DNA from: a virus
Length of the DNA stretch: 37,816 nucleotides
IMG/VR virus record: IMGVR_UViG_3300030109_002799
Location: 1 to 37,816 of that record
Reading direction: 5' to 3' (one strand)
Every line of letters begins with the position of its first letter. Position 1 is the first letter of the stretch. Shown in pieces: positions 3,757 to 36,602 of the stretch. The notes under the pieces were generated by a model. It did not search any database. It was not told the DNA's origin and was given only the letters and a program-made list of their open reading frames with translations. Made by a program: the position numbers and the translations under genes.

Positions 3757-3976
3757 CGAGTTAATAAAAGTAGCAAAAGAAAAAATTGTTGATAGCGACG
3801 ATGATGTATCAGCTGATAGGCTTAAAAATGCAGCAGCAACAAAAAAATTAGCTATATTTGATGCGTTTGAAATACTAAATCGTATTGATGAAGAAAAAGC
3901 TATGCTAGATGGTAAGGTAAAAGAAGAAACCAAACCAAAAGCGTTTAGTGGTTTTGCGGAGAAAAGATCTAAATAA
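3701..3976 (+). CDS. Putative terminase small subunit
   Basis: 91 aa from the ATG at 3701 (a TTG six bases earlier is also in frame but less likely). It is all-helical, charged and lysine-rich, with a heptad-like stretch KEKIVDSDDDVSADRLKNAA, then KKLAIFDAFEILNRIDEEKA. The basic N-terminus (NTKDKKKNI) could bind DNA. The call rests mainly on position: its stop codon TAA overlaps the TerL start by one base (AATAATG), and its size fits small terminase oligomerisation/DNA-binding subunits. No clear helix-turn-helix is visible, so another small packaging or helper protein is possible. Confidence 0.45.
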   Translation: MNTKDKKKNIIQAGYRAVDELIKVAKEKIVDSDDDVSADRLKNAAATKKLAIFDAFEILNRIDEEKAMLDGKVKEETKPKAFSGFAEKRSK

Positions 3977-6190: not shown

Positions 6191-8608
6191 ATGGCAAAAG
6201 GAACAAAAGGTTATTTTCCAAGTCAAGTAGTAAGTGATGCTGAGAAAGCTAGCTATGATTATGGTTTAAAGGTAGCTAGAGCAATAGAGCACGACTGGGT
6301 TGATACCTCTGGGTCAACCATGAATAAATTAAATTCCATAAGAAACGACTTTCATAATCTAAGATTATACGCAAGAGGCGAGCAATCAATACAAAAATAC
6401 AAAGATGAATTATCTATTAATGGTGATTTATCTTATCTTAATTTAGACTGGAAACCAGTTCCTATAATTCCTAAATTTGTTGACATAGTAGTAAACGGTA
6501 TTGCTGAAAGAACATATGATATAAAGGCATATTCTCAAGATCCATACGGCGTTGCTAAAAGAACTGCATATATGGAGTCTGTATTAAAAGATATGGCCAC
6601 ACAGGATATAGGTGATTTTGCGCAACAAGCTTTTGGCATTAATATATATGAAAATAATAAAGAAACTTTACCTGAGTCAGAAGAAGAATTAGCGATTCAC
6701 ATGCAACTAAACTATAAGCAAAATATAGAACTTGCAGAAGAACAAGCAATTAATACTTTATTAACAGGTAATGACTATGAGTTAATAACAAAAAGATTTT
6801 TCTATGACTTAACTGTATTAGGCATTGGTGCTGTTAAACATAATTTCACAGAAGCTGAAGGTGTTACTGTAGATTATGTTGATCCCGCTAATTTAGTTTG
6901 GTCATATACTGAATCGCCATACTTTGATGATATATATTACTGTGGTGAGGTAAAAAATATACCAATAAACGAATTAAAAAAAGAATTTTCACATTTAACA
7001 AACGAAGACTTATTAGAAATATCTCAACAAGCTTCAGTTAAAGACATAAACCAAAGTTATTCTTCATACTCAGAGGAGCTTGATAATAACATAGTTCAAG
7101 TTTTATATTTTAATTATAAAACATATATGAACGATGTTTATAAAGTAAAGCAAACTGCTACAGGTGCTACAAAAATAATTCAAAAAGATGATAGCTTCGA
7201 TCCACCACAAGGTGATGAAAGATTTAAAAAACTATCAAAGTCTATAGAGGTTTTATATGAAGGAGCTTTAGTTTTAGGTACAGAAAAATTATTAAAGTGG
7301 AATTTAGCTAAAAACATGATAAGGCCTAAAAGTGATTACACTAAGGTTAAAATGAATTATAGTATTGTTGCTCCACGTATGTACAAAGGTAGAATAGAAT
7401 CTTTAGTAAAAAGAATTACGGGTTTTGCTGACATGATCCAGTTAACACATTTAAAATTACAACAGGTGATGTCACGTATGGTACCTGACGGTGTTTATTT
7501 AGATGCTGATGGTTTAGCTGAAGTTGATTTAGGCAATGGCACAAACTATAATCCACAAGAAGCCTTAAATATGTTTTTCCAAACTGGTAGTATAATTGGT
7601 AGATCATTAACATCAGAAGGTGATATGAACCCTGGTAAAGTACCTATACAAGAAATAACAAGTGGATCAGGTGGTAATAAAATTAACGCATTAATAGGTA
7701 ATTATAATTACTACTTACAAATGATTAGAGATGTGACTGGTTTAAATGAAGCTAGAGACGGTAGTATGCCAGATAAAAACGCGCTCGTAGGAGTCCAGAA
7801 ACTAGCCGCTGCTAACTCTAATACTGCTACAAGGCATATACTACAAAGTGGGTTATTCTTGACGTCTCAGGTTGCAGAAGGACTGTCTCTGAGAATATCT
7901 GATATACTAGAGTATTCACCAACAAAAGAAGCATTTATTCAAGCTATTGGAGCACATAATGTTGGTACATTAGAAGAGATGTCTGAGTTACATATGTATG
8001 ACTTTGGTATATTTATTGAACTAGCGCCAGATGAAGAAGAAAAACAATTGCTAGAAAATAATATACAGCAAGCATTAGCACAGCAAGGTATAGAACTTGA
8101 AGACGCTATTGATGTTAGAGAAATTAAAAACATACGTTTAGCAAATCAGTTGTTAAAAATAAGACGTAAAAAGAAATTAGAGCGTGACCAGCAAGTTGCG
8201 CAACAAAATATACAAGCACAAGCGCAAGCTAATGCGCAAGCGCAACAAGTAGCAGCTCAAGCTGAAGTTCAAAAGCAGCAAGCGTTAACACAAAGTAAAG
8301 CACAGCTTGAACAAGTTGAAGCACAGTTAGGATTACAAAAATTACAAGCTGAAGCAGCACTTAAAAAAGAATTAATGAATCATGAGTTTCAAATTAACAT
8401 GAAGTTAAGAGAAATGGAGCTTGAATCATTAAAACAAAAAGAAACTAATAAGGAAGATAGAAAAGATGAACGTACTAGAATACAAGCATCGCAACAGTCT
8501 GAATTAATAGATCAAAGAAAAACTGGCAAACCACCTAAAAAATTTGAGTCAACAAGTAATGATATACTTAGCGGGGATTTTGACTTAGGTATGTTTGATC
8601 CTAGTTAA
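6191..8608 (+). CDS. Portal protein
   Basis: 805 aa, starting one base after the TerL stop codon. It is assigned from position, size and the typical portal layout: a mixed alpha/beta body, a wing/clip region with repeated aromatic strands, and a long helical C-terminal barrel from about residue 620. The barrel is extremely Gln/Ala-rich (AQAQANAQAQQVAAQAEVQK and onward), then highly charged (KLREMELESLKQKETNKEDR). Twelve copies form the ring through which DNA is packaged and ejected, and to which TerL and the connectors bind. The motif LNEARDGSMPDKNALVGVQK in the stem region is characteristic of portals of this type as I remember them. The Gln/Ala tract is low-complexity, so similarity searches should mask it. 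Confidence 0.8.
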   Translation: MAKGTKGYFPSQVVSDAEKASYDYGLKVARAIEHDWVDTSGSTMNKLNSIRNDFHNLRLYARGEQSIQKYKDELSINGDLSYLNLDWKPVPIIPKFVDIVVNGIAERTYDIKAYSQDPYGVAKRTAYMESVLKDMATQDIGDFAQQAFGINIYENNKETLPESEEELAIHMQLNYKQNIELAEEQAINTLLTGNDYELITKRFFYDLTVLGIGAVKHNFTEAEGVTVDYVDPANLVWSYTESPYFDDIYYCGEVKNIPINELKKEFSHLTNEDLLEISQQASVKDINQSYSSYSEELDNNIVQVLYFNYKTYMNDVYKVKQTATGATKIIQKDDSFDPPQGDERFKKLSKSIEVLYEGALVLGTEKLLKWNLAKNMIRPKSDYTKVKMNYSIVAPRMYKGRIESLVKRITGFADMIQLTHLKLQQVMSRMVPDGVYLDADGLAEVDLGNGTNYNPQEALNMFFQTGSIIGRSLTSEGDMNPGKVPIQEITSGSGGNKINALIGNYNYYLQMIRDVTGLNEARDGSMPDKNALVGVQKLAAANSNTATRHILQSGLFLTSQVAEGLSLRISDILEYSPTKEAFIQAIGAHNVGTLEEMSELHMYDFGIFIELAPDEEEKQLLENNIQQALAQQGIELEDAIDVREIKNIRLANQLLKIRRKKKLERDQQVAQQNIQAQAQANAQAQQVAAQAEVQKQQALTQSKAQLEQVEAQLGLQKLQAEAALKKELMNHEFQINMKLREMELESLKQKETNKEDRKDERTRIQASQQSELIDQRKTGKPPKKFESTSNDILSGDFDLGMFDPS

Positions 8609-13997: not shown

Positions 13998-16900
13998 ATG
14001 CCAGAAATTAAAAGAGTATTTACGTCAGGTCGTATGAATAAAGACCTTGATGAAAGGTTGGTGCCTAACGGTGAATATAGAGATGCTTTAAATGTACAGC
14101 TAGCAACATCTGAAGGTTCAAACGTGGGTACACTGCAAAATGTCTTAGGTAATGAAAAAATTTCAAATATAAAAAGCGTATTAATATCTGGTATATCTGG
14201 AATAACAAGTTCTACAGAAATAAAAACAGTAGGTTCCGCTGTTGATGAAACAAACAATAAAGTATATTTTTTTATAACAGCTAATGATAGTGATAATTAT
14301 AGCGCTATTATAGAGTATGATCAAGATAATAATAGTGTATTACCTGTTATTGTAGACGTTGATTTAGAGGTATTAAACTTTAATAATGAGGCTTTTATTA
14401 CAGGTATAAATGTTTTTGACAGGTTTATATATTATACAGATAATGTAAAAGAGCCAAAACAAGTTGATATTGATAAATTTAAAAATGGAGCTAACACTAG
14501 CAACCCATATACTACCACAACACAGTATGACGGTAGAGATTTTAAAGAAGAAGATATAACTGTAATTAAAAAATCACCATTTAAAGCACCTCATATTACG
14601 CTACAAAGATCACTAAGAGATGGCCAAGTTGTAACAACGCACTACGATACAACACAAAAATTTAAACAAGCAAGTGAAGTGGATTTATCTTCCACAACGC
14701 AATTAGTGCCAGGCGATAAAGTTAGTATTAAATTTAACGGTAGACCAGATTACAGCGGTAATGATATTATTAAATTAACAGCAGGTGAACAAGATGAGCA
14801 CGTTATAAGAGTAAGGTTATTTAATGTATCTGCGCAAGCTGTTGATCATATCACTTTCAATACCAAAATAGTATCGATAACCGATGATATACTGGGTGAT
14901 TCTAACGGCATAACATGGCAGTGTATTTTAGAAGAGCCTGAGCCACTGTATGAGTTTAAATTTCCAAGATTTGCTTACAGGTGGAAATACGATAATAATC
15001 AATTTTCAGCATTATCACCATTTACAGACGTAGCATTTTTACCTGATGAAGTTGATGGTTTTAAATATGATTCTATAAAAGGTCATAACAAAGCAATGAC
15101 TAACAACGCTAGAAAAATAAAAATTAATAGCTTATTAACACCACCAAGTGATGTTGAAGAAGTTCAAATATTATATAAAGAGTCAAATAGTACTAATATA
15201 TATATACTATCAAAATTAACTAATGATGAAACATCTTTTGAAGTTACATCAGAACAAATACAAGGTTTATTAGATTCAAATCAAATTCTTAGAATATACG
15301 ACAACGTGCCGTTAAAAGCAAAGTCACAAGATGTGGTTGGTAATAGATTAGTTTACGGTAACTACACACAAAATTTTAATGTTCCACAAACTATAACAAT
15401 TGATTCTAATGTTTTTTCTAAAGAAATAAAAAGTCCTACACCGGCTCAATCATTAAAGTCACAAAGAAAGTATCAACTTGGTATTGTGTATGTAGATGAA
15501 TACGGAAGACAAACACCTGTGTTTACTAGCGATTCATCAAGTAAAGGTGACACGGTGGAGACATCAGAGGTAAAAGTTGATATATTTGGAGCTGAAACAG
15601 CAAATCAACTGCAAGTAAAAATTAATTCAACTCATCCTAGCTGGGCTAAGTATTTTAAATATTATGTTAAAGAAAATTCAAACGAATATTATAATTTAGC
15701 ATTAGACAGATATTATTATGGGGAAGATAACTTTTTATGGTTATCGTTTAACTCACCTGAAAGAAACAAAATAGAGATAGGTGATTATATTACATTAAAA
15801 AAAGCGCATGGTAAAGATATAGCGGCGGCAACTTTAGGTTTAGAGCCTGAAACACTAAAATATAAAATACTAGATATACAAACAATACCACCCACGTTTG
15901 TTAAAACAGAAAAGCAACTCTTTGGTTCTATAGAACATGTTATGTTTTCTACTGATGCTGATGGTTCATACGTGCCTGCTGAAGACATAAAGGTGTTTAG
16001 AATAGGTGGAGCTCATATACACCAAACAGCAAACATAGGTAATCTAAAAGATTTAGCAGGCGGTACTCAAGACGGTTTATATGTTAGAATATTTAATGAC
16101 AAGACTAGAGTCAGCACGAGAACATATGAAGTAGATAAAATAACGCTTATTGACAACATTGGTGGAAGTGGCGATGGAGCTTATGACAATGCTAACGATA
16201 GGTATGAGTTTTCATTAAAAGAACCTTTTGGTACTGACGCTAATTTTATTCCTTATTTAGCAACAGGATCATACTCTGCATTTGCAAGTGGTAATATTAC
16301 TGTTGAATTTTATCAATCAGTTGAAAAAGAAGAAAGGGATTTTGCTGGTAAGTTTTTTGTTAAAGTACAAAAAAATTCTAATTTAGAGTTTTCAAAGAAA
16401 ACAAACATTTCACAAAAAGATTTTGTTCAAGTTGCTCAAAAAAAATTAGTATTAATTGATGGTAGCGATTACTTAGCTGGCCGATCAAGTTGGGTTGTTA
16501 ACCAAGCTCAACGTAAAGCTAATTTTGGCTTAGATATTGGTGGTTTTAGATGGACAAAAAATGGCGGTACTGCTTTTATACAAACAAACGACTATACAAG
16601 CTTAAAGGGAAAAAGCGTTATATATATTAGACACTTTGATAGTCCTGATTTTTATCCAATAGCTGGTAGCGCTGGGGTTGCGTCCGCTAGAAGTGGTAAA
16701 TTATTACACGATAAACTAACTAGCTCTATAACAAAGTACCTACAGTTTAGCGACAACGATGATACAACGAGTGATGACACTGCGGCTGTTTACGAAATAA
16801 AAACAGTAAAGCACTTTGAAATATATAACTACTCAGGTGAAAACAAATATCGTAAGTTTTCTTCTAATAGAGGTTACATGTATGAGATTACACTTAAACA

Positions 16901-19900
16901 ACCTATAACTTGGGATCCAGTAACAGATGGTAGCATGGGTGTCAATAGCGCTGCTGGTGTTAGAATGCCAATAATATCTGATAGGTGGAACGACAACCAA
17001 ATATATTTAAATATACTAGAAGAAGATACATCTAACGAAGGTGAAAATGAAATTAATCCAGCAATATTTGAAACTGAACCAAAAGCACAAGACGTTGATT
17101 TAAACATATGGTATGAAGCAAGTTCAGCTTACCCTGTAACAGGTATACAAAATTATATACATGTTAATGACATTATAACGGGCTTTAGTTCCGTGCCCGC
17201 TGCCCAGAGAACCGTTACAGCTATAGGTATAGATGGTAATAACAATAGAATACAAGTTAGCGGTGCTTTTTCGGCAAGCGCGGATGATGTATTAACATTT
17301 ACAAATCCACAAAGTGGTGCAGCGGTAACAGCTACCGTAGCAAGTGTTGAAGCTGGAAACAAAGTAACATTAAATACAATTTTATCTAACCACAATCAAA
17401 CGCAAACGTTATCGTGGTTTAACTGCTTTGCTTTTGGTAACGGTGTTGAGTCTAATAGAATAAGAGATGATTTTAATGCTGTTGTGATAGATAAAGGAGC
17501 TAAAGTAAGTGCAGTATTATCAACGCCTTACGGCGAAGAAACATTAAAAAATGGTTTAATATATTCTGGTATATATAATTCTAATGCAAGTGTAAACGAG
17601 TTAAATCAATTCAACGCTGGTATAAAAATAACAAAAGATTTAAATCCAGAGTATGGATCTATACAAAAGCTACATACAAGAAACACAGACTTAATTGCCT
17701 TTTGTGAAGATAAAGTTATTAAAATATTAGCTAATAAAGATGCTTTATTTAACGCAGATGGTAATATAAATTTAACATCAACTAACAATGTTTTAGGTCA
17801 ATCAATACCTTTTGTTGGTGAATATGGTATTAGTAAAAATCCTGAAAGTTTTGCTAACCATGGTTATAGAGTTTATTTTGCAGATAAAAAACGTGGTGCT
17901 GTATTAAGGTTATCAATGGACGGTATAACAGAAATATCTGAAAAAGGTATGAGAGATTACTTTTTAGATAATACTAAAGCTGCGTCTTCTATAATAGGTA
18001 GTTACGATATAAGCACAGATTCATACAATATTACGCTAAATAATGATACTGTTAGTTTTACAGAACTTGTAAATGGCTGGGTTAGTAGAAAATCATTTAT
18101 ACCTGAAAGTGGTGTATCGTTAAATAATACTTATTACACATTTTATAATGGTGAAATATGGTCGCATACAAATGCATTAAGAAATAAATTTTACGATACC
18201 ACAAATAAATCTAGCGTTAACTTGATATTTAATGATGCACCATCATCAATAAAAAACTTTAAAACACTAAATTATGAGGGTAGTAAAGACTGGAAAGCAA
18301 CTGAAGTTACAACAGATCAACAATCAGGCAAAGTAACATATTTTAAAGATAAAGAAAATAAGTGGTTTAATTATATTAGAGGCACATCTACTAGCAAAGT
18401 AACAATTAACTTTGTAGATAACAATAATAGTAATTTTGAGGATGTTGAAGGTGTAGTGCTAAATAAAGCTGTAGATTCTACTGTTAATGACTCTGTAACT
18501 TTTACTGTTAAGCCAAAAAATGGTTTTAAAGTTATTGACACTTCTATTGCTTCAACCTTTGTATATCAAGGACCGGTAAGTAAAGTTACTAGCGTTACTA
18601 ACGTTACTAAAGTTAATGGTAATATACAATTTACAGTAAACTTAAGTGGTTTTACTATGCCATCGTCAGATGTCACTATAAACGTACCGTTTAATACTAG
18701 CAACACGCTTGTAGCTAAAACGTACAGTGTAAATGTAAATCGAGTAAACGTATTAACTAACGCCACGGGTTCTGTTAGTGGTGCGCTTACAACAAGTGGA
18801 TCTTATGGCACTACTGCTACGTTATTCACCAATACAATAACCCCTACTGCTAACAACACATTTTCAGTCCCACCAAGGGTTGATAGATCAGGCTTAGAAA
18901 GCCCTAGTAATTACGATATAACCAGAACAGGGCCAGACGGTAATGGTGCTTATGCTTTTGTTGTTAAATATAAATTTCCAAACAAAAATGTTTCTGGTGA
19001 TGTATTAACTTTTAATGCTACAGCAGGAAGTAGTATAATACAGACAACAAACAAAATATACAACGCTGTTATATTAAGTGACGGGGTTGAAGATGAATCA
19101 ACGCTTAACGCTGCTGGCGAAACTAGAACTGTAAGAATATACGGTGATGATGGCGCTCAAGTGTCTGTAAATGCATATAACAACGCTTCTTCTAGTACAA
19201 GTTTAATAGGTGGTGCTACTACTAAAACAATACAATCAGAAGGTTATGTTGACGTTAATATAGATTTTCCAGCTATTACGAATACAGCAAGAACATATTC
19301 AATTAAGTTACAAGAAATAAACTCTGGTGATTTTATCAACGAGTTTGATGCTTCACAAACAGGTGGTGATGGTATTGTTATATTTACATTAGATCAATAT
19401 GTAGATACAGTCGTAACTTTTGGTATTCATAATCCACCTGCGAACATGACCATAATAACAAGTGCGGATCCTTATTTTAGCACTTTTACATCTACTGGTC
19501 CTGGTAATACAGAAATAGATATACCATTAGATATATTGCTATCATTTAAGGTAACAGCAACGCAAGACATATCGTTAAAAGAATTTAATCCTTATTACCA
19601 ACACTTTACAAGAAAAGCAAATACAACAGCAACTACCACTGGTGGTTCTGTGACTAACACAACTTTCACTATAGCTAGTGCTAATGCTAACGTTTTACCA
19701 GGTATGGTTGTGACTGGAACTGGTATATCTGGTTATGTGTATGTGGAGTCAATATCAGGAACAACATTAGTATTATCAAAGTCAGTAACATTAAATAATG
19801 CAACTTTAACATTTAGTGGTGTTGATACAACAAAGCAGCAATTGGTATTAGAGGGTGGTAGCATTGTAAAATTTGGTAGATCTACTGTAACTATAGATAA

Positions 19901-20372
19901 TAGCGGTGGTACTAAATCAGCTATATTTACAATACCAGCTTATGTTGTAAAGTATGGCACAAGTAATGTAACTACTAATTTAGACTTAAACACAGTGTTT
20001 AACGTAGGTAGTGCTGTGACGACAAGAACTGTTACAGTTGCAGCAAGTTCAGCAGCTAACAATTTAATTAGCTCTATATCACTAAACTCAGGTAATACTG
20101 TTAATGTGGGCACGTCGGCTGGAACTGTTGTAACAGGAACTGGTACAATGACTGGTAATTTTAATGGCTTAACATCTAGTCAAATAGAATTAAGTTATGA
20201 TACTTTAGTAGGCTTTAATGACTCAACTAGTAGTAGTATTACCCCAACTTACTCTGGTAGTGGCTCATCATCCCAATCAGCTACATTTAACTGGTCAATG
20301 AGATTATCAAGTAACGTCGGAACTTCGACAAACTTGTCGTTTAAAGTACATGCAACCGATTCACCTGAATAA
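13998..20372 (+). CDS. Giant tail nozzle/stabilisation-type protein with adhesin-like C-terminus
   Basis: 2124 aa. The first 60 residues (PEIKRVFTSGRMNKDLDERL, then VPNGEYRDALNVQ and VGTLQNVLGN) are a signature I associate with P22 gp10-like tail nozzle proteins of marine podoviruses. Around residues 1220-1320 are propeller-like strands (LHTRNTDLIAFCEDKVIKIL, NHGYRVYFADKKRGAVLRLS). From about 1470 the composition changes to S/T/N/G-rich: an InlB/Ig-like segment with FTMPSSDVTINV near 1551, then a GMVVTGTGI-x-GYVYVESISG module near 1890 that is common in phage fibre shafts. The likely role is the tail tip channel fused to surface-exposed adhesin modules. The fusion makes it far longer than P22 gp10. 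No peptidase or glycosidase motif was seen. The nozzle call is moderately firm; the adhesin role is inferred. Confidence 0.65.
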   Translation: MPEIKRVFTSGRMNKDLDERLVPNGEYRDALNVQLATSEGSNVGTLQNVLGNEKISNIKSVLISGISGITSSTEIKTVGSAVDETNNKVYFFITANDSDNYSAIIEYDQDNNSVLPVIVDVDLEVLNFNNEAFITGINVFDRFIYYTDNVKEPKQVDIDKFKNGANTSNPYTTTTQYDGRDFKEEDITVIKKSPFKAPHITLQRSLRDGQVVTTHYDTTQKFKQASEVDLSSTTQLVPGDKVSIKFNGRPDYSGNDIIKLTAGEQDEHVIRVRLFNVSAQAVDHITFNTKIVSITDDILGDSNGITWQCILEEPEPLYEFKFPRFAYRWKYDNNQFSALSPFTDVAFLPDEVDGFKYDSIKGHNKAMTNNARKIKINSLLTPPSDVEEVQILYKESNSTNIYILSKLTNDETSFEVTSEQIQGLLDSNQILRIYDNVPLKAKSQDVVGNRLVYGNYTQNFNVPQTITIDSNVFSKEIKSPTPAQSLKSQRKYQLGIVYVDEYGRQTPVFTSDSSSKGDTVETSEVKVDIFGAETANQLQVKINSTHPSWAKYFKYYVKENSNEYYNLALDRYYYGEDNFLWLSFNSPERNKIEIGDYITLKKAHGKDIAAATLGLEPETLKYKILDIQTIPPTFVKTEKQLFGSIEHVMFSTDADGSYVPAEDIKVFRIGGAHIHQTANIGNLKDLAGGTQDGLYVRIFNDKTRVSTRTYEVDKITLIDNIGGSGDGAYDNANDRYEFSLKEPFGTDANFIPYLATGSYSAFASGNITVEFYQSVEKEERDFAGKFFVKVQKNSNLEFSKKTNISQKDFVQVAQKKLVLIDGSDYLAGRSSWVVNQAQRKANFGLDIGGFRWTKNGGTAFIQTNDYTSLKGKSVIYIRHFDSPDFYPIAGSAGVASARSGKLLHDKLTSSITKYLQFSDNDDTTSDDTAAVYEIKTVKHFEIYNYSGENKYRKFSSNRGYMYEITLKQPITWDPVTDGSMGVNSAAGVRMPIISDRWNDNQIYLNILEEDTSNEGENEINPAIFETEPKAQDVDLNIWYEASSAYPVTGIQNYIHVNDIITGFSSVPAAQRTVTAIGIDGNNNRIQVSGAFSASADDVLTFTNPQSGAAVTATVASVEAGNKVTLNTILSNHNQTQTLSWFNCFAFGNGVESNRIRDDFNAVVIDKGAKVSAVLSTPYGEETLKNGLIYSGIYNSNASVNELNQFNAGIKITKDLNPEYGSIQKLHTRNTDLIAFCEDKVIKILANKDALFNADGNINLTSTNNVLGQSIPFVGEYGISKNPESFANHGYRVYFADKKRGAVLRLSMDGITEISEKGMRDYFLDNTKAASSIIGSYDISTDSYNITLNNDTVSFTELVNGWVSRKSFIPESGVSLNNTYYTFYNGEIWSHTNALRNKFYDTTNKSSVNLIFNDAPSSIKNFKTLNYEGSKDWKATEVTTDQQSGKVTYFKDKENKWFNYIRGTSTSKVTINFVDNNNSNFEDVEGVVLNKAVDSTVNDSVTFTVKPKNGFKVIDTSIASTFVYQGPVSKVTSVTNVTKVNGNIQFTVNLSGFTMPSSDVTINVPFNTSNTLVAKTYSVNVNRVNVLTNATGSVSGALTTSGSYGTTATLFTNTITPTANNTFSVPPRVDRSGLESPSNYDITRTGPDGNGAYAFVVKYKFPNKNVSGDVLTFNATAGSSIIQTTNKIYNAVILSDGVEDESTLNAAGETRTVRIYGDDGAQVSVNAYNNASSSTSLIGGATTKTIQSEGYVDVNIDFPAITNTARTYSIKLQEINSGDFINEFDASQTGGDGIVIFTLDQYVDTVVTFGIHNPPANMTIITSADPYFSTFTSTGPGNTEIDIPLDILLSFKVTATQDISLKEFNPYYQHFTRKANTTATTTGGSVTNTTFTIASANANVLPGMVVTGTGISGYVYVESISGTTLVLSKSVTLNNATLTFSGVDTTKQQLVLEGGSIVKFGRSTVTIDNSGGTKSAIFTIPAYVVKYGTSNVTTNLDLNTVFNVGSAVTTRTVTVAASSAANNLISSISLNSGNTVNVGTSAGTVVTGTGTMTGNFNGLTSSQIELSYDTLVGFNDSTSSSITPTYSGSGSSSQSATFNWSMRLSSNVGTSTNLSFKVHATDSPE

Positions 20373-20904: not shown

Positions 20905-21843
20905 ATGGCATTACCTTTATTAGGAGCAAATTTAGCAATGCAAGCAGGAAGCCAAATACTACAGGGTATTGGTGGTATAGTTAGTGGTATTGCAGGTAGT
21001 AGACAAAGAAGACGTGAGCAAGCTGACGCAGCAAGATCATACACTGACGCTATGGCTAGATTTGAGAATATAGACACATCTAATCCGTATGCAAATATTA
21101 CAAACCCATACGCAAATCTTACGGTAAATCAACAACAAGCAGATTTCATGGCACAACAAACGCAGCAAGCATCAGCTAACACGATGTCACAATTAAGTGC
21201 TGCTGCTGGTGGTTCTGGTATAGCTTCTTTAGCACAAGCAATGGCTAATCAACAAACAAGAAATTTACAACAAGCTTCTGCTACTATAGGAGCTCAAGAG
21301 GCTGCTAATCAAAGGTTAACAGCTCAAGGCGACATGCAAACACAAATGGCTAGAGCACAAGGTGATTATTTATCACAAAGGATGCAAGCTAATCAAGCTA
21401 CAACACAACTTGCTATGGCACAAAGAAGAAAAGCAGCTGCTGATCAAGCTAGACAGCAAGCGACTGGTGCTTTAGTAGGTGGTATAGGTAAAATAGCAGG
21501 AGGTGTTATGTCTGGATTTACAGCTGATAAAGCATTAAAAGGTATAGGTATGGATGGTTTATTTGGTGGAGCTAACAGCGGAACAAACCAAACTACTAAC
21601 CCAGCTGGCACTATGGCAAACAACGCTGAAGCGGCACCAGTTGTTACATCTAATTTTAACCCTCAAGTAACAGGTAGTCAAAGTTACATAGATAATGTAA
21701 ATGCTTTTATGGAAGGCTATCAAACACCATCTGAGGCAGCTGGATTTAACGTAAATGTATTCCAAGACAAAACGTTTGTTCAAAACGCTAATGGTACTTT
21801 CAAATGGAATCAAGTAACGCAAACATACGAAAAAATAGACTAA
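20905..21843 (+). CDS. Putative internal virion/ejection protein (T7 gp14-like size and character)
   Basis: 312 aa. The N-terminus is a hydrophobic Gly-rich helix (GANLAMQAGSQILQGIGGIV, SGIAGSRQRRRE) of the type seen in short ejection proteins that insert in the outer membrane. The middle (about 70-190) is a long Ala/Gln-rich amphipathic helix region (QQADFMAQQTQQASANTMSQ; ANQQTRNLQQASATIGAQEA; RAQGDYLSQRMQANQATTQL). A second Gly-rich hydrophobic stretch (GALVGGIGKIAGGVMSGF) follows. It is the first of three consecutive genes of increasing size, echoing the T7 gp14-gp15-gp16 order. The role would be forming a channel for DNA entry. Assignment rests on composition and order, not detectable homology. 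Confidence 0.6.
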   Translation: MALPLLGANLAMQAGSQILQGIGGIVSGIAGSRQRRREQADAARSYTDAMARFENIDTSNPYANITNPYANLTVNQQQADFMAQQTQQASANTMSQLSAAAGGSGIASLAQAMANQQTRNLQQASATIGAQEAANQRLTAQGDMQTQMARAQGDYLSQRMQANQATTQLAMAQRRKAAADQARQQATGALVGGIGKIAGGVMSGFTADKALKGIGMDGLFGGANSGTNQTTNPAGTMANNAEAAPVVTSNFNPQVTGSQSYIDNVNAFMEGYQTPSEAAGFNVNVFQDKTFVQNANGTFKWNQVTQTYEKID

Positions 21844-21847
21844 GATT

Positions 21848-24034
21848 ATGGCAACAAAAAGAAATACACCAAGACAAAATTACGGTAATCCATTTTCAGC
21901 TGGCTCATCAGTAGCACAAGGCGCAGCGTTAACAGCACCTGGTTTTGTTGATTATTCAAAGTTTTTTGATACATCAGCTACACCTGGTTTACAAGCAGCA
22001 CAACAAGGTTTATTTACGCAGATAGCTATTGCTAATGAGACACACGCTAAGAATATGGAAAATATTTTACCAGCTGACTTTGATGAAACTCAATTAGCAC
22101 CTGGTTCTGTTGATGGTACATACGCAATGTTACGTGGTTTAAAAGATCAGGCTTTTAATCTTAGTAGGCAAGCAGCTAATTTAAGAGGTACAAAAGAAGG
22201 TGATATGGCTCAAATGGAGCTAAACAAAATTAAATCACAAATGTCAAAGCATTATGGTAATAACGTTGAGTACAACTCAATGATGATAGATCATAATAAA
22301 AACAAAGATTTTTATTCTACTTCATATAATTTTATGCCTGGTAAAGCAGAAAAATATCAAAAGTATGTAAAGTTTGTCGATCCATCCGCTAAAATATCAT
22401 ATGATGGTAAAACAATGATGATCGAATCAAAGGATGGTGATAAAATATCTTTTGAAGAGTTGAAAAAATTAGAACCAGCAATGAAACAAACTGAGTTAAA
22501 CTTAGGCGTTGAAACTTTAGGCGTAGATGTTATTAGTAAATCACTTAATGGCACAACGGTTACTGATGGTGAAATAGATTTAAAACTAAATGCTTTAATA
22601 ACAAAAGCTAACCTGGACAATGGTAATATACAAGATGGTATATTATCACTTGCCACTGATTTAACGTTTAAACATGGTAATGATGAGTTTAATTTCTATA
22701 GTTATTTAAATAGTAATCCGGAATTAAAAAGTAAGTATTTAACTGAAGACGGTAAATTTAAAACATTTGAAGATCCAACGCAAAGAGATACATATTATAA
22801 AGAGCTTGAGAAAGACGTAAAAAATTATTTTAGAAACTCAATGACTGCAGCTAGAGATGAGAATATAGCAGCGTTTGAAGATAAACAAGCTAAAGCTCTT
22901 TCTGACAAACTAAATGCTGAAAAAGAGTTGGTTACATTTAAGAGTAATGAGCAAATAAGGGTTAGAAACGCAACATTTAATCCTCAAGGAGGTGTAGGTC
23001 TTCAAGAATCAGAGGATCAGTTAATCGCGCGTATGAAGTATATCAACGATGCTGTTGATAGAGGTGATTTAAGTGTATTTCAAGCTTATGGTTTAGATGG
23101 TAAAAATGCTCTTGATATTAGTCAAGACGAAAATGGTATTGTTGATATTAATATGTACGGAACAGATCCAAGTGTATCTGGAACGTATGGCTTAGATAAT
23201 AGCAGCTCTATTTTTACAGGGCAAGCTCAAACGCCAGAAGATAAAACAAAACTAAAGCAGGCATTGTTCAATACAATAATAGGTAAAAAATGGACAAACT
23301 TAAGCGAAAAGGCAGGTGTTGATTTAAACACACCATCGCCAACACCCGCAGGAGGTGATGGGGGTACGGGGCTAGGTTTTGATCCATTACAATTATCTTC
23401 ATTACAAAATATTGACAATATGAACTCTAAAGAGTTAGGTACTCTTATAGATAAAATAGATAACCAAAATCAAGATACGCAATCATTCGGTGAGGGTGGT
23501 GCAACGTTTACTATAGATGGACAAACATTAACAGAAACTGATAAGACAAATTTATTAAATAGTTTAAATAAAATACAAGACGAAAAAATCGGCCTTGAAA
23601 ACGAAGATGATGATGTTAAAGATGCGTTGCAACTAGTTACAGATCTTCAGTGGCGTAATTTTAGATATAGAGGAATTAATGAATCTGACGGTTCAGTAAA
23701 TTACAAAGACGGCAACATTAAAGCGCACAAAGCCTACACTGTACTAAAGGAGCTTGATGAGATGTTAAACACAAGAAAATTAAGTCCAAATGCTGAGGCT
23801 CAAATTAGAGACGCTATTGAATATTTAAAAAACTTAAGCGAAGGAAAAATTACAGACGTGTCTCAGTTAAAATATTACGGTGGAGATATGATTAATAAAA
23901 TTATGAAAAGCAGAAACACATCATCCACAGGAAGCACCAAAAAGGTAGAAGAAAATCCTTTTGAAAGTGGACAAGGACCAAGTGTATTCGCTGCTAACAC
24001 CACAACAACTAACGAATTTCCCTTATTAGGTTAA
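21848..24034 (+). CDS. Putative internal virion/ejection protein (gp15-like position)
   Basis: 728 aa, starting 4 bases after the preceding stop. It is soluble and helical overall: a Gln/Ala-rich N-terminal helix region (TPGLQAAQQGLFTQIAIANE), conserved-looking LRGLKDQAFNLSRQAANLRG, then alternating helical segments. A Pro/Gly linker (PSPTPAGGDGGTG) near residue 500 separates two parts. The linker has a local G+C-rich stretch (about 23330-23375) unlike the rest of the gene. The C-terminus is Ser/Thr/Asn-rich (SGQGPSVFAANTTTTNEF). No catalytic motif or membrane helix. Its place between the 312-aa and 2287-aa proteins suggests the middle component of the ejectosome, extending the channel through the periplasm. 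Confidence 0.55.
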   Translation: MATKRNTPRQNYGNPFSAGSSVAQGAALTAPGFVDYSKFFDTSATPGLQAAQQGLFTQIAIANETHAKNMENILPADFDETQLAPGSVDGTYAMLRGLKDQAFNLSRQAANLRGTKEGDMAQMELNKIKSQMSKHYGNNVEYNSMMIDHNKNKDFYSTSYNFMPGKAEKYQKYVKFVDPSAKISYDGKTMMIESKDGDKISFEELKKLEPAMKQTELNLGVETLGVDVISKSLNGTTVTDGEIDLKLNALITKANLDNGNIQDGILSLATDLTFKHGNDEFNFYSYLNSNPELKSKYLTEDGKFKTFEDPTQRDTYYKELEKDVKNYFRNSMTAARDENIAAFEDKQAKALSDKLNAEKELVTFKSNEQIRVRNATFNPQGGVGLQESEDQLIARMKYINDAVDRGDLSVFQAYGLDGKNALDISQDENGIVDINMYGTDPSVSGTYGLDNSSSIFTGQAQTPEDKTKLKQALFNTIIGKKWTNLSEKAGVDLNTPSPTPAGGDGGTGLGFDPLQLSSLQNIDNMNSKELGTLIDKIDNQNQDTQSFGEGGATFTIDGQTLTETDKTNLLNSLNKIQDEKIGLENEDDDVKDALQLVTDLQWRNFRYRGINESDGSVNYKDGNIKAHKAYTVLKELDEMLNTRKLSPNAEAQIRDAIEYLKNLSEGKITDVSQLKYYGGDMINKIMKSRNTSSTGSTKKVEENPFESGQGPSVFAANTTTTNEFPLLG

Positions 24035-24040: not shown

Positions 24041-27000
24041 ATGGAACCAAATAATAAAAAATATAATATAGAGGATTTGTTTAATCCTAACTTTACTGTA
24101 AATGATCCTAACGCCGGTGAATCTGCATGGGAGAGAGAGTTACGTGAGACTGGGATAAACTTTTCCAATGCACTTAGCAATATACTACCTGATTTAAATA
24201 AAGCTTGGCAAGCAACAACAGCAACTAGTGTTGACATGCTTAAGAGCGTAGGCGGTGAAGACTTTGCTGATTTTTTAGTTGGTGATTACGATGAGTTCAT
24301 GGAGCGTAAGTATAAAAAAATACAAGAGCTTGACTTAGCTAGAAAAGAAACTGGTGGTATAGTAAAAGGTATACGAGCAGGTGGTGATTTTTCAGATATT
24401 GCAGGTGGTATGTTTAACGCTGTCACAAGTTTAGTTACTACAATGGCACCAGCTGTATTAACAAGAGGGTTATCATTAGTTCCTCAAATAGCAGCTCCTA
24501 TGGTTGTTGATTATAACACCACAAAAGCAAAAACAAAATATAAAGACTCTGACGATCCAATAAGAGATTTAATAGAAGATGATGAGGTAGACTTTGCTGT
24601 TCCAGCAACACTCGGTTTGTTTGCAGCAAGCATGGAGCGTATAGGTATAAAAGGTATTACAAGTTATATAGCCAAACAATCATTTAAAGGCAAAGGCGCG
24701 GTTATGTTGTTAAACACCGCTTCAAGAGAAGGTTTAACAGAATCAGGACAATTTTTCACAGAACAACTTAATACAAATTTAGCACAAGGCATGAAGTCTG
24801 ATGAGGCTGCATGGAAAGCTTTTCAATCAATATCAAGTGATGAGGGTATTGAAAGTTTCCTACAAGGTTTCGTAGGTGGTGCTGCGGTTGGAGGTGTTAG
24901 TAGAAAGGTATCAAGAGCTTTGCGTAATGACGACCAAGGTTCTAAAATGGTAATGAATAGCATTAGATCGTTAGCCGCGTTAAATGATAAAAAGAAAAAT
25001 GAAAAAAGCACTGCAGGTAGAAAAATACTAGATGATGATATAGCTAAAATAGAAGCTGGAATAAAAAACTACATGAATGATAATCAAAAAGTAGCTGAGT
25101 TGCTTGGAGAAGATCAGAAGCAGCGTTTAGAGAAGTTAATAGATGATAAGGATGCTTTACGCTCAAGAGTAAAAGAATTACAACAGGAGTTGCAAGATGG
25201 CAAAATAACACAACAAGCTTATAACGGTTATTTATCTAGTGAAAGTAAAAAGTACACAAAAATAAATGAAGCTATAGCAGCAGTTAAAAACGAAGTTGAT
25301 ATAAATATAGCAGGAACACAAAGAAAAGCTGTAGAAGAAGCTGCTGAAATAGCAGGTAACGAAGTTAAGGATATAGACAAAAATCAAAAAGAAGAATTAT
25401 TAAAGAAAAATGGCTTTACAGGGCAAAAGCTAAAAGACGCTAAAGATACAGTGGCTGGTGTTTATAATCCTAATGATGGTATTTTATATTTAGACATGGA
25501 AACAGCATTAGACGTTGGTGAGATAAATGTTGCTGGCCATGAATTACTACACCCTATATTTAACAAGTTGATAGGTGATCCTGCTAAGCAGGGTAAAATA
25601 GTTGAAGATTTTAAAAAGCAACTAACGCAAGCAGAGCTTGATACAATGGAGCAGGAGATGTTAGAAAGAGGTTATACACTTGAAAATGGTAAATACAACA
25701 CTGAGTATGTAAACGTATTTTCTGATGGTATAACTAAAGGCTTTGTAGGTTTTAATGATAGTGTGTTTAGTAAAGTTGGTGATGTTATTACAGGTTTATT
25801 TAAAAACGTTGGTTTTAAAAACATATCATTTGATTCTGGTAGAGGCGTTTATAACTTTTTAAAAGCATATCACGAAGGTTTAGATACTGGTAAGTTTAAT
25901 CAAGATGTATTAACGTTTATTGAAAAAACAAAAGACATAAAAGATCCATTAAGTACAGTGCAGGAGTCTCAAGCGCCTAACCCATATAATGAGTTTACAG
26001 CTGAAGAATTAATTGAAATTAAAAAATCGCCACAAACAACAGAGAGTCAAATGAGATTAGCTGACGATGCTTTACTAAATCAATTTGATTTACTAGCATT
26101 AAAAGCATTAAAGTATGATACAAGAAAAGGTGACTTTAAAAGGGAAGATGTTTTATCTGCAGCTAGAGCAGAACTACCAGGTATCGTAGATAGATTTGAT
26201 CCTGCTACAGCCAAGTTTTCTACGTTTGTAACAAACACAATGGCACCTAAGCAGCAGCAAATTTATGAAGAAGTAAAATCACTACAGAGACCAGGTGAAA
26301 GTCTAGATGCTCCAGAAGCAAGGCAAGTAGCTGTAGAAGAAACTACACAAGAAGAAACAACAACTAAACCAATAACGAAGTTAAGTCCATTAAGTTTTCA
26401 AAAGGTTATAGATAAAGATTTTGAAGGTGACGTTAATATTAAGCAGGAGCAATTACCTACAATTTCACATAAAGAAGTTGCTGAACAGTTTGGTGGTAAA
26501 GTTTCATCAAAAATATTTAATATACCAGAAGCTAAAATAACAGATCCAAAGAAAAACTTAACTTACGCTAAAAAAATAACAGACGGTATACCTGAAAACT
26601 CTGAAGCAGGTAACATACAACAGTTCTACGATATATCAAATAACTTAGAACAATTAATAAAAATACTACCACCAGAAAATGTTAGTTCACAGTCAGCTAA
26701 TATAAATAAACAAGGTGAAATTATTGAAGTGTCAAGAGAAGTATATGGTAGATCATTAGGCGTAAGTAATAGAGTATTAAATTATTTTTATGAAAACGTA
26801 CCTGGTAAACGATCTAAAGGTTTATCATCACAAGTACAATTAAAAAAATTAAAAGAAAAGTTTATCAACCCAACAGCTGAAGTTATTGCTGAAGCTAAAA
26901 AAGAATTAGGCATAACACCTAAAGGTCAATTAAATAAATATAATAGAACAATAGGTCAAATGTTAAAAGGCTTAGCTAAATTACAAGGTGAATTAACAGC

Positions 27001-30000
27001 TAACACTATTGCTAGAGAACAAATATCAAAAATAGAAACTAAAACTGTAAAGCCTAAAGCACAAATATTAGCTGATGTTAAAGCTGGAGCAGCAGACATA
27101 CAATTAAGTGAAAGTGTAAAAGGCTTTAGCGCAACAGATATTCAGCAGTTAGGTTTAATAGCTAGAAGTGCAACAGATTTAGGTGTAGCAAAAGAGCTTG
27201 AAATAAACAAGATAACAGTAAATGCTGATAACATAGGTGCGGTACAACTTAATTTAATTAACTTTGTAAAACAAGGTAAAATACCATCGTGGGTTATTAA
27301 ATTAAGTCAACTTGCTAATTTTGGTGCTAAGTATAGAAAAGACAAAAATGGTAAAAAATATTATCTTTTAAAAAATGGAAAAGAGGTATTAAAAGATTCA
27401 CCCGCCTACAAAAAAGCTTTAGTTAACGGTGATTTGTTGCCAGAAAAAGGTAGTTTGTTTTATAGCAGTGTGTATGATCCAAATTATTTAAGGTTAGTAG
27501 AAGTAGCAAAAGAAAATGATAAAATTAACCCTAAGCCAAAAAGAGTTACTTTGCCAAAAGGTGGTAAAATAAACAAGCAATTTATTAACGCTAATAAAGC
27601 ACAAAATAAAATTAACATGGATGCTTTACAGTCTTTTGCTGAAATACTCGAAACTGCTGTTCACAAACATGGGATGCCAATAGAGTATGCATATGCGCTT
27701 ATATCAAACGCTTACTCATCAACGCGTGGGTTGATAAAAATAGCTGCTCCTTTTAAGTATATATCACAAGATATATCACAGGGTTACACGGAAGAGCATA
27801 ACCCACCAGCCTCTACAATAGGTGGTGCCATTGCTTTTATGATTAAAAACAAAAAAGTAAAACAAGGTTTTCCATTTGTAAGAAGTAATTATTATCAAAC
27901 GGTAATAGCTGATAAAGATGACACCACTTTAAACGCTACGCACAAACAAACATCACCTGTACCCATATTGGTTGAGTCAGCTACTAGGTTTACCGACGCT
28001 GGAATTGACATTAATACTATAATAAACGCTGAAACTGGCAAGTCTTTAGCTGAAGAATTAAGCGTAAACGTTCCTAGCGGTACAAAAATGACACCAGAGC
28101 TTATTCAACAGACAAAAAATCATTTAATAAAAAAATTAAATAAAGAGATATCAAACAAAGAAATTAAACAAGAAATAAAAGCTGAGTTAAAAATAAACGA
28201 TAATATACTACAAGCAAGTCAAGTTAATAGAGATAGTTTTAATTTCTTAACAGAAAACATGACGGTTAAAGAGCAGTTAGATATGATGAAAACATATGAT
28301 AAAGCTCTTGATGTAGCTAGAGACCTTAACGCGCCTGAAAAAGGTATAAGTGTTTTTGATTTTGATGAAACATTAGCTACAACTAAAAGTAATGTTATAG
28401 TTAAGTTTACAGACGGTACGGAGCAAACAATTAATGCAGCGGAGTTTGCAGAACAAGCAGCAGAATTAGAGCAACAAGGTGCTACTTTTGATTTTAGTGA
28501 ATTTAACCAAGTTATTGACGGTAAAAAAGGACCATTGTTTGATCTTGCTATGAGAAGACAAGACAAATTTACTAGTAAAGATATTTTTATATTAACAGCT
28601 AGACCACAGGAAGCGGCTGTTGCTATATCAGCATTTTTAAAAGGCATGGGTTTAAATATACCTGTAGATAATATAGTTGGCTTAGCTGATGGTAGACCGG
28701 AAGCAAAAGCAAACTGGATAGTTGGTAAAGCAGCTGAAGGTTATAATAACTTTTATTTTGCAGATGATGCTTATAAAAATGTAAAAGTAGTTCAAGACGT
28801 TTTAAACGTTATTGATGTTAAAGGTAAAGTACAACAAGCTAAACTACAATTTAGCAAAAGTGTTGATAAACAATTTAATACGATATTGCAAGAAAAAACA
28901 GGGGTAAAACAAGAAGCTAAGTTTTCTGACGCCGCAGCAAAGTCAAGAGGTATGAAATCTTTACCTTGGTACAAAAGATGGTTTATACCACCATCAGCTG
29001 AAGATTTTGTAGGTTTACTATATCACTTTACGCCAAAAGGTAAAAAAGGAGAGCAAGCTATGGAGTTTTTTAAGAAAACATTAATTGATCCATTTGCTAG
29101 AGGTTTTAAAAATATAAATGCCGCTAAGCAGGTTTTAGCTAATGACTTTGACGCTTTACAAAAAGCATATCCTAATATAAAAAAATTATACAACAAAGAT
29201 ACTGGTTATAATAATTTTACAAATGAGCAGGCTATAAGAGTATACTTGTGGGATAAAAATGGTATTGAAATACCAGGTATATCAAAAAGAGATTTAAAAG
29301 CATTAGCAAAAATAGTAGAAGATAATAAAGATATGAAGGCTTTTGCTAGCAAGCTAGGTGAGATATCTAAAATGCCTGATGGTTATATTAAACCTACAGA
29401 AAGTTGGACAGCTGGTACCATAGGATCTGACATTGTAAGTATAAGTACAAGAGAAAATAGAGCTACACATTTAAAAGAATTTTTAGACAACAAAGAAGTT
29501 ATATTTTCTAAAGACAACTTAAATAAAATTGAAGCAATATACGGTACTGATTTTAGATCTTCACTAGAAGATATGTTATGGAGGATGGAAAATGGTAGCA
29601 ATAGAAGAACTGGTCAAAGTAAATTAGTCAACGGATGGTTTGATTGGGTTAACAACTCTGTTGGTGCTATAATGTTCTTTAACTTTAGATCAGCTGTGCT
29701 ACAGACTATATCAGCCGTTAACTTTGTTAACTGGAGTGATAACAACCCATTAAAAGCAGGTGCGGCTTTAGCTAACATACCACAATATACAAAAGACTTT
29801 GCTTATATATTTAATTCAGACATGTTAAAACAAAGAAGAGCAGGATTACAAACTGATGTTAACGCATCAGAACTTGCTGATTCTATAGCAAATAAAAAAG
29901 ACAAGGTAAATGCAACAATAGCATTTTTACTTAAAAAAGGATTTTTACCTACGCAGATGGCTGATAGTTTTGCAATTGCTTCAGGTGGTGCGACGTTTTA

Positions 30001-30904
30001 TAGAAACAGAATTAACACATATAAAAAACAAGGTTTTACAGGTAAAGAAGCTGAATCAAAAGCGTTTAAAGATTTTCAAGAAATATCTGAAGTATCACAG
30101 CAGTCAAGTAGACCAGATCTTATATCAGAACAACAAGCTGGACCATTAGGTAGATTAATATTAGCTTTTCAAAATACACCTATGCAGTACACAAGGTTAA
30201 TGAAAAAAGCAGCGGTAGATTTAAAAAATGGTAGAGGTGATACTAAAACCAACATATCTAAGATAATATACTACGGTGCTGTACAAAATATAATATTTAC
30301 AGCAATGCAAAATGCTATGTTTGGTTTATTATTTGAAGATGAAGAAGAGAAAAATGATGATAGATATGATAAGAAAAAAGCTAGGATGTTGAATAGCATG
30401 TCTGATACTATATTAAGAGGTATCGGTGTTTATGGTGCTGCTATATCCACAATAAAAAACGTCGCGTTAAAATTTATACAAGAAGAAGGCGATGGTAGAC
30501 CTAATCACACTTATACTCTTATAGAAGCAATTAATTTATCACCACCTATTGGTAGTAAAGCTAGAAAAATATATACAGCAACGCAAACTTACACATTTAA
30601 TAAAGATGAAATAAAAGAAAAAGGTTTTGCTCTAGATAGTCCAGCATATGGCGCTGTTGGTAATGTTATATCAGCTGGTACTAACATACCGACAGACAGG
30701 GTGTATAATATAGTTAACAATGCACAAGCTGCTCTTGATAAAAACAATAAAGCGTGGCAGAGAATAGCTGTTGCCTTAGGTTGGAATACATGGGATGTTG
30801 GCATAGAACGTAAAAAGTTTGAAAAGGATAAAAAAGAAATAACTAAATCACAAATCATACGACAAAGGAGACTAAATAGACTAAATAATAAAAAAAATAA
30901 GTAA
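24041..30904 (+). CDS. Giant polyvalent virion protein with HExxH, sigma-like and HAD phosphatase segments
   Basis: 2287 aa, following 6 bases after the previous stop; third and largest of the ejection-type genes. Order of parts: a helical N-terminus with a hydrophobic stretch around 120-155 (SLVTTMAPAVLTRGLSLVPQ); coiled-coil about 330-440; HELLH at 500-504 in NVAGHELLHPIFNKL, matching an HExxH zinc-peptidase motif; a segment 674-745 resembling sigma-70 region 2, with IVDRFDPATAKFSTFV and a following GESLDAPEARQ; a complete HAD motif set, DFDET (D1440, D1442), LTARP (T1519) and FADD (D1575, D1576); then long helical regions with a hydrophobic stretch IIYYGAVQNIIFTAMQNAMF near the C-terminus. 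The pattern matches the polyvalent-protein concept: multi-domain proteins injected with phage DNA. The HAD call is firm. Peptidase activity and sigma relation are inferences, and no second zinc ligand was confirmed. Confidence 0.72.
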   Translation: MEPNNKKYNIEDLFNPNFTVNDPNAGESAWERELRETGINFSNALSNILPDLNKAWQATTATSVDMLKSVGGEDFADFLVGDYDEFMERKYKKIQELDLARKETGGIVKGIRAGGDFSDIAGGMFNAVTSLVTTMAPAVLTRGLSLVPQIAAPMVVDYNTTKAKTKYKDSDDPIRDLIEDDEVDFAVPATLGLFAASMERIGIKGITSYIAKQSFKGKGAVMLLNTASREGLTESGQFFTEQLNTNLAQGMKSDEAAWKAFQSISSDEGIESFLQGFVGGAAVGGVSRKVSRALRNDDQGSKMVMNSIRSLAALNDKKKNEKSTAGRKILDDDIAKIEAGIKNYMNDNQKVAELLGEDQKQRLEKLIDDKDALRSRVKELQQELQDGKITQQAYNGYLSSESKKYTKINEAIAAVKNEVDINIAGTQRKAVEEAAEIAGNEVKDIDKNQKEELLKKNGFTGQKLKDAKDTVAGVYNPNDGILYLDMETALDVGEINVAGHELLHPIFNKLIGDPAKQGKIVEDFKKQLTQAELDTMEQEMLERGYTLENGKYNTEYVNVFSDGITKGFVGFNDSVFSKVGDVITGLFKNVGFKNISFDSGRGVYNFLKAYHEGLDTGKFNQDVLTFIEKTKDIKDPLSTVQESQAPNPYNEFTAEELIEIKKSPQTTESQMRLADDALLNQFDLLALKALKYDTRKGDFKREDVLSAARAELPGIVDRFDPATAKFSTFVTNTMAPKQQQIYEEVKSLQRPGESLDAPEARQVAVEETTQEETTTKPITKLSPLSFQKVIDKDFEGDVNIKQEQLPTISHKEVAEQFGGKVSSKIFNIPEAKITDPKKNLTYAKKITDGIPENSEAGNIQQFYDISNNLEQLIKILPPENVSSQSANINKQGEIIEVSREVYGRSLGVSNRVLNYFYENVPGKRSKGLSSQVQLKKLKEKFINPTAEVIAEAKKELGITPKGQLNKYNRTIGQMLKGLAKLQGELTANTIAREQISKIETKTVKPKAQILADVKAGAADIQLSESVKGFSATDIQQLGLIARSATDLGVAKELEINKITVNADNIGAVQLNLINFVKQGKIPSWVIKLSQLANFGAKYRKDKNGKKYYLLKNGKEVLKDSPAYKKALVNGDLLPEKGSLFYSSVYDPNYLRLVEVAKENDKINPKPKRVTLPKGGKINKQFINANKAQNKINMDALQSFAEILETAVHKHGMPIEYAYALISNAYSSTRGLIKIAAPFKYISQDISQGYTEEHNPPASTIGGAIAFMIKNKKVKQGFPFVRSNYYQTVIADKDDTTLNATHKQTSPVPILVESATRFTDAGIDINTIINAETGKSLAEELSVNVPSGTKMTPELIQQTKNHLIKKLNKEISNKEIKQEIKAELKINDNILQASQVNRDSFNFLTENMTVKEQLDMMKTYDKALDVARDLNAPEKGISVFDFDETLATTKSNVIVKFTDGTEQTINAAEFAEQAAELEQQGATFDFSEFNQVIDGKKGPLFDLAMRRQDKFTSKDIFILTARPQEAAVAISAFLKGMGLNIPVDNIVGLADGRPEAKANWIVGKAAEGYNNFYFADDAYKNVKVVQDVLNVIDVKGKVQQAKLQFSKSVDKQFNTILQEKTGVKQEAKFSDAAAKSRGMKSLPWYKRWFIPPSAEDFVGLLYHFTPKGKKGEQAMEFFKKTLIDPFARGFKNINAAKQVLANDFDALQKAYPNIKKLYNKDTGYNNFTNEQAIRVYLWDKNGIEIPGISKRDLKALAKIVEDNKDMKAFASKLGEISKMPDGYIKPTESWTAGTIGSDIVSISTRENRATHLKEFLDNKEVIFSKDNLNKIEAIYGTDFRSSLEDMLWRMENGSNRRTGQSKLVNGWFDWVNNSVGAIMFFNFRSAVLQTISAVNFVNWSDNNPLKAGAALANIPQYTKDFAYIFNSDMLKQRRAGLQTDVNASELADSIANKKDKVNATIAFLLKKGFLPTQMADSFAIASGGATFYRNRINTYKKQGFTGKEAESKAFKDFQEISEVSQQSSRPDLISEQQAGPLGRLILAFQNTPMQYTRLMKKAAVDLKNGRGDTKTNISKIIYYGAVQNIIFTAMQNAMFGLLFEDEEEKNDDRYDKKKARMLNSMSDTILRGIGVYGAAISTIKNVALKFIQEEGDGRPNHTYTLIEAINLSPPIGSKARKIYTATQTYTFNKDEIKEKGFALDSPAYGAVGNVISAGTNIPTDRVYNIVNNAQAALDKNNKAWQRIAVALGWNTWDVGIERKKFEKDKKEITKSQIIRQRRLNRLNNKKNK

Positions 30905-36597: not shown

Positions 36598-36602
36598 ATT
36601 AT

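Follow-up and report, generated by a model that had tools for sequence, protein, structure and literature searches.

Polyvalent proteins combine enzymatic domains of several unrelated kinds in a single polypeptide that the virion delivers, with a zincin-like metallopeptidase as the hub. Zincins are the domain found most often in them; the proposed roles are processing of the polypeptide, whether before or after injection, and an effector function (PMC5512222). In phicrAss001, the muzzle gene is followed by genes for the cargo proteins gp45-gp50; these are stored in the tail as well as the capsid and, as has been proposed, leave ahead of the DNA, and the giant proteins that crassviruses store in the virion and eject include a virion RNA polymerase (PMC10172136). 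Three further giant genes directly follow genes for a small and a middle ejection protein: gp101 of Cellulophaga phage phi40:1 (Pervagoviridae), elemoF gp18 (Flavobacterium phage) and Gundel1_74 (Tenacibaculum phage Gundel_1, Pachyviridae).

The window (i.e. the whole stretch of DNA analyzed, 37,816 bases) is the IMG/VR virus fragment IMGVR_UViG_3300030109_002799. Its giant gene is an intact open reading frame (24041-30904, plus strand, ATG start, 2287 residues) with the same layout as the genes described above; in contrast to the crassvirus giants, its product carries zincin, sigma-2-like and HAD domains. The structural and ejection genes were assigned as follows.

3976..6189, plus strand: large terminase subunit (TerL; phrog_6681, E 7.8e-170)
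6191..8608, plus strand: portal protein (phrog_6547, E 2.9e-156)
13998..20372, plus strand: muzzle (tail tip) protein (Pfam crAss_MUZ_C, 7.4e-11; phrog_14478, 2.5e-133)
20905..21843, plus strand: small ejection protein, 312 aa, Ala/Gln-rich (71 loci; profile match to phi40:1 gp099)
21848..24034, plus strand: proposed middle ejection protein, 728 aa (gene order as in phi40:1 gp099-gp100-gp101)
24041..30904, plus strand: giant virion/ejection protein (open reading frame; 72 non-redundant homologues)

The crassvirus-type muzzle, which was present in 30 of 30 related records, stands together with TerL and the portal in one structural module, and the giant gene is the last of a conserved three-gene ejection set behind it; in Elemovirus and phi40:1, the giant gene likewise closes the structural module. 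Members of the 312-aa protein's family occur in 71 loci, most often 1.5-3.1 kb upstream of the giant gene, and profile matches to phi40:1 gp099 and Gundel1_72 were obtained. For the 728-aa protein, no sequence relatives were detected. The closest annotated TerL is that of the uncultured podovirus MW202828 (64%), followed by Elemovirus (46%), and matches to Cellulophaga, Tenacibaculum and Maribacter phages were also obtained. The phage is probably a crassvirus-related marine phage with a Bacteroidota host. Host assignment by way of metagenome-assembled genomes was rejected as unreliable: the related contigs L097-L105 had been binned with Woesearchaeota, Aliivibrio, Ilumatobacteraceae, Maricaulis and Bacteroidetes, a span that suggests mis-binning. 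Elsewhere in the window, a protein matching a phage GroES-like PHROG is encoded just before the terminase (3163-3756), as in Elemovirus and Callevirus, and ordinary ribonucleotide reductase genes are located at 34873-37589 on the minus strand. A frameshift suspected in nrdA was rejected, as the two adjacent open reading frames, which lie in different frames, are nrdB and nrdA.

Homologues of the giant protein were collected by a search of IMG/VR with the HAD domain and the C-terminal part as the query. At least 541 related stretches were found; 80 were retained, and these yielded 72 non-redundant long homologues. An HExxH motif was present in 71 of the 72 (shuffling the sequences left one in only 1.25% of the copies), and in 70 of the 72 it preceded a DFD[DE]T motif by 810-1179 residues, with order and spacing preserved; the motif is thus not a chance occurrence, and the domain order holds in other phages. 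One homologue (L072) has HDAFH near the expected place instead of HExxH, and another (L042) has DFDGT instead of DFD[DE]T. Single-sequence searches of Pfam, PHROGs and the PDB with the whole protein returned nothing significant, and a PDB search with the middle region gave only noise (designed Lys/Glu-rich proteins). Two structural models were used: model 1 was calculated with AlphaFold2 from 68 homologues for residues 440-800 (mean pLDDT 81.7), and model 2 covered residues 776-1640 (mean pLDDT 80.6). The original prediction had placed HELLH at residues 500-504, a sigma-like segment and a set of HAD motifs in this reading frame, and all three were located where it had put them. The layout of the protein, with domain identities assigned at the level of fold and motif, is given below.

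24041..25360, plus strand: N-terminal region, residues 1-440, unconserved among relatives and very variable in length
25442..25906, plus strand: zincin-like metallopeptidase domain, residues 468-622 (HExxH and E555 conservation; model)
25538..25552, plus strand: HELLH, residues 500-504 (H/E/H invariant in 68 of 68)
25703..25705, plus strand: Glu555, proposed third zinc ligand (at least 90% conserved)
25988..26278, plus strand: sigma-70 domain-2-like helical domain, residues 650-746 (VIA-align; hhalign; position of HMM matches)
26426..27085, plus strand: confidently modelled domain, residues 796-1015 (model 2, pLDDT mostly >85)
27098..27535, plus strand: low-confidence stretch, residues 1020-1165 (pLDDT mostly <60)
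27563..28225, plus strand: domain with His1253 in an EHxxP motif, residues 1175-1395 (model 2, confident)
28334..28855, plus strand: HAD phosphatase domain of the Pnkp 3'-phosphatase type, residues 1432-1605 (motifs, VIA-align, phrog_415)
28916..30901, plus strand: C-terminal part, residues 1626-2287, the most conserved region (ca. 660 residues)

Several of these regions bear no assignment. In the N-terminal regions of nine long relatives, no Pfam domain was found except LPD14 at E 0.0087, which is below the cut-off; this single weak LPD match in the family is a point of difference from the polyvalent proteins. Residues 796-1015 matched no recognized family, and the low-confidence stretch that follows is, judging from the model, probably a flexible linker. 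For residues 1175-1395, no known family was found, and His1253 (27797-27799) was invariant in 65 of 65 relatives; the domain may be catalytic. Part of residues 1626-2287 was matched by Gundel1_74, annotated as a 'structural protein' (E 1.8e-12), and this C-terminal part is proposed to serve in virion incorporation or ejection.

The sigma-like segment was compared to known structures using model 1. Among the matches listed by VIA-align, 50 of 50 were sigma factors, with Z-scores of 6.5-8.3 over ca. 95 residues; because such scores can be middling for helical bundles, independent tests were made. The best match (Z 8.3, rmsd 3.4, 95 aligned residues) placed residues 650-746 on sigma domain 2, and Foldseek also ranked sigma factors first, with weak E-values (0.06-1). 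When sliding windows of the family alignment were compared to five E. coli sigma factors in hhalign, a peak was obtained only at the sigma-like segment (22.2, and 21.2 for an overlapping window; all others were at or below 13.4). With phage sigma factors added, the sigma-like segment scored 30.7 (P 2.2e-5), and non-overlapping windows did not exceed 14.2. Matches to a sigma HMM, each of them weak, clustered at one offset from HExxH, with the eight best all at +173 to +328; the clustering was absent from reversed controls. Pfam Sigma70_r2 matched the homologue L030 at an equal offset, weakly (E 0.007).

Family searches with single members did not reliably recover the segment. With a longer segment as the query, Sigma70_r2 did not appear for any of the 68 members among the families listed at E 0.1; with a short segment it appeared for one of 60 (E 0.12). 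The sigma block by itself, searched against the PDB, gave only noise. A lone PHROG sigma match (9.4e-6), whose member and region of origin were untraced, was left out of the assignment. Given the near-empty Sigma70_r2 searches, the assignment draws on structure, on profile-profile comparison and on agreement in position. These give good grounds, at the level of the model, for regarding residues 650-746 as a sigma-70 domain 2 fold and not an unrelated helical one. The region-2-like stretch originally proposed at 674-745 therefore stands as to its fold, with better limits at 650-746; its proposed action on transcription does not follow from the fold.

In the aligned register, the sigma-70 stretch corresponds to DVLSAARAELPGIVDRFDPATA-KFSTFVTNT of the giant protein, with the core pattern kept. 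The core-binding residues of region 2.2 (Q406 and E407 of sigma-70) are absent; S706 and A707 occupy these places and are unconserved in the family. The aromatic residues that melt the -10 element (W433 and W434) are absent also, with N732 and T733 at the aligned positions; ECF sigma factors likewise are without aromatics of the W433/W434 type. Neither region 3 nor the helix-turn-helix of region 4 was found in the giant protein. Thus, the segment shares fold and register with domain 2 of the sigma-70 family and differs from it in lacking these key residues, in showing no recognizable region 4 and in being fused into a virion protein. Since the core-binding and promoter-melting residues are missing and no region 4 was found, an effect on transcription is unproven, and the case for sigma function is weak. 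A serious competitor, to which we would give a little less than an even chance, is that the domain is a retained fold with a purely structural or DNA-packing role that never touches RNA polymerase. The missing residues and the failure to find regions 3 and 4 suit such a role, as does the presence in the related phages of a complete, separate sigma factor (ca. 252 aa, Sigma70_r2 above the Pfam cut-off), which was encoded in 12 of 12 long related records (L106-L111 and six more). Against it, the segment stays at a constant place even where the homologues diverge, and it has its own conserved residues (YDP...L..YIN..L..R); there are also small phage sigma factors, T4 gp55 among them, whose relation to the family is mainly through domain 2. 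No match to an Rpb1-type polymerase (Rpb1_2) was obtained in the 12 long records; crassvirus polymerases are very divergent and may escape this test, so absence is not proven. With their own sigma factor and no recognizable Rpb1-type polymerase, the related phages presumably use the host polymerase.

The HAD domain was assigned from motifs and from model 2. Motifs I-IV (DxDxT, T, K, DD) are complete, as had been predicted for residues 1440-1576: D1440, D1442 and T1444 are at least 90% conserved, and T1519, K1556, D1575 and D1576 are invariant in 42 members. With the HAD fold and all of its motifs present, an alternative assignment of DFDxT to the DxDxD motif of RNA polymerases was rejected. 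The best VIA-align matches of the modelled domain were HAD phosphatases, with Z up to 13.3, and the top four were all Pnkp (5uj0, Z 13.3, 2.5 A over 127 residues; 4xru, 12.6; 1ltq, 12.5; 2ia5, 12.0). Family members also matched phrog_415, polynucleotide kinase (27 of 42 members, best 1.4e-7), and TIGR01664, DNA 3'-phosphatase; the sequence scores for this assignment were moderate. The domain thus shares the HAD fold, the motif set and the best structural match with T4 and bacterial Pnkp (5uj0, 4xru, 1ltq), which is a stand-alone repair enzyme, whereas here it is one domain of a giant virion protein, with the kinase, if any, inside the HAD domain. No P-loop 5'-kinase domain is present in the giant protein under study. 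Five relatives (L021, L052, L069, L101 and L102) are further Pnkp-like in having an insertion of ca. 170 residues, a P-loop kinase, between motifs I and II of the HAD domain. A single-sequence PDB search with this insert gave 4gp7/4jst as the best match (E 0.0017); these entries carry the title 'Metallophosphoesterase', and we take them to be the kinase domain of Clostridium thermocellum Pnkp. T4 polynucleotide kinase was matched at E 0.039. In L021 and L069, the P-loop reads GKG instead of GK[ST], and L103 carries a second, different insertion of ca. 150 residues near the end of the HAD domain (residues ca. 1302-1449).

As the domain is of the Pnkp 3'-phosphatase type, its substrate is likely nucleic-acid 3' ends and not small molecules, and the link to small-molecule metabolism drawn in the original prediction is corrected accordingly to nucleic-acid end repair. 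That the HAD domain has instead a small phosphorylated substrate, either a nucleotide signal or a metabolite, and that the insert in some relatives is zeta-toxin-like and not polynucleotide-kinase-like, appears rather unlikely. Matches of family members to DUF2608 (best 8.2e-6), the class C acid phosphatases that Foldseek ranked first with weak E-values, and a four-sequence profile of the insert, which was less specific and preferred other P-loop kinases, all lean that way, and zeta-toxin-like kinases are present in polyvalent proteins (PMC5512222); four pointers to Pnkp, namely TIGR01664, phrog_415, the first four VIA-align ranks and the single-sequence kinase search, oppose it.

The protease-like HELLH was borne out as part of a zincin-type domain. 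H500, E501 and H504 were invariant in 68 of 68 aligned members, and E555, which is located 51 residues C-terminal of the second HExxH histidine, was at least 90% conserved. In model 1, strands precede the HExxH helix and Glu555 lies in a later helix (model helix 114-127), as expected for a zincin that takes its third ligand from such a position. The domain is common to the giant proteins elemoF gp18 (E 1.6e-9) and ctfjg026 (E 1.2e-6). The solved zincins 1c7k and 3c37 were matched by profile only weakly (E 0.5-0.9), and among the matches listed for the model of residues 440-800, the places were taken up by sigma factors. Nothing points to envelope substrates, contrary to the proposed action on the host envelope, and such zincins are thought mainly to be self-processing (PMC5512222). 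We regard as doubtful the view that the zincin is an effector on host proteins (e.g. one of the envelope or of a defence system), whether or not it also processes its own polypeptide: host targeting is among the possibilities raised for such domains (PMC5512222), and sequence varies much between relatives around the zinc-binding residues, but no substrate evidence was found, and self-processing suits at least equally well a protein that has several modules and an extended flexible stretch.

The giant protein is very probably a podovirus-type, ejected protein, and it apparently resides inside the virus particle in a family of abundant marine phages, an arrangement that could bring its functions into the host ahead of phage gene expression. 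Delivery with the DNA was inferred from gene order and from the positional counterpart phi40:1 gp101, with which there is no detectable sequence similarity and which has been detected in virions; gp097, gp098, gp099, gp100 and gp101 of phi40:1 are all annotated 'experimental MS/MS proteomics'. Crassvirus-type gene order, the three-gene ejection set and this counterpart agree with the podovirus-like ejection protein first proposed. Of the positional counterparts, elemoF gp18 shares the zincin and Gundel1_74 the C-terminal part; none of the three has a HAD domain. It is improbable that the protein is a structural component of tail or core whose modules are active only in assembly and that it is not delivered, for while MS/MS of the phi40:1 counterpart attests to virion presence and not to ejection, the giant gene follows a small, Ala/Gln-rich ejection-type protein and occupies the position of the phicrAss001 cargo genes, behind the muzzle (PMC10172136).

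Taken as a whole, the data are best explained by an ejected and processed giant protein that brings in a sigma-2-like module and a phosphatase for end healing, a reading that we hold with moderate confidence and favor because phicrAss001 cargo proteins are stored and ejected and zincins process polyvalent proteins. Of the three ejection proteins of this crassvirus-related marine phage, it would be the largest; it would be packed in the capsid, perhaps by way of its conserved C-terminal part, and would pass through the muzzle into the cytoplasm, either before the DNA or together with it. By analogy with injected polyvalent proteins, the zincin would cut the polypeptide, possibly in the stretch 1020-1165, freeing the working modules. 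The Pnkp-type HAD domain would remove 3'-phosphates from damaged DNA or RNA ends and could in this way mend the incoming genome, or host RNA that defence nucleases have cut; those relatives that have the HAD-inserted P-loop kinase would gain from it a further phospho-transfer activity. The sigma-2-like domain, for its part, may touch either promoter DNA or the host's RNA polymerase, and such contact would favor transcription of the entering genome or compete with host sigma. A bolder version, which we consider a long shot, has the injected sigma-2 domain dock on host RNA polymerase ahead of any phage gene expression and steer it to the entering genome; a Pnkp-type end-healing enzyme would be injected along with it, and the zincin would release the modules. 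This would be a polymerase-free counterpart of the virion RNA polymerases that N4 and the crassviruses use.

The polyvalent-protein concept is supported here, with the zincin, sigma-2-like and HAD segments all confirmed as domains (PMC5512222). The class of polyvalent, injected proteins is known, as are zincins in injected proteins; in the open-access literature, no injected sigma domain and no description of a sigma-2 and Pnkp-type combination were found, and a sigma domain, a phosphatase and a polynucleotide kinase go unmentioned in the main text of the polyvalent survey (PMC5512222). The combination, originally called unusual, thus appears to be new.

Many phages must begin transcription and survive nucleases before making any protein. 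If the proposed reading is true, one injected polypeptide would serve both needs in a large group of uncultured marine phages, with a sigma-like module for the host polymerase and a phosphatase that heals broken DNA or RNA ends, and two functions would be added to those in the main text of the polyvalent survey. The domain limits given here make the modules separately testable. The same reading could explain how infection starts in crassvirus-related phages that are without a recognizable virion polymerase.
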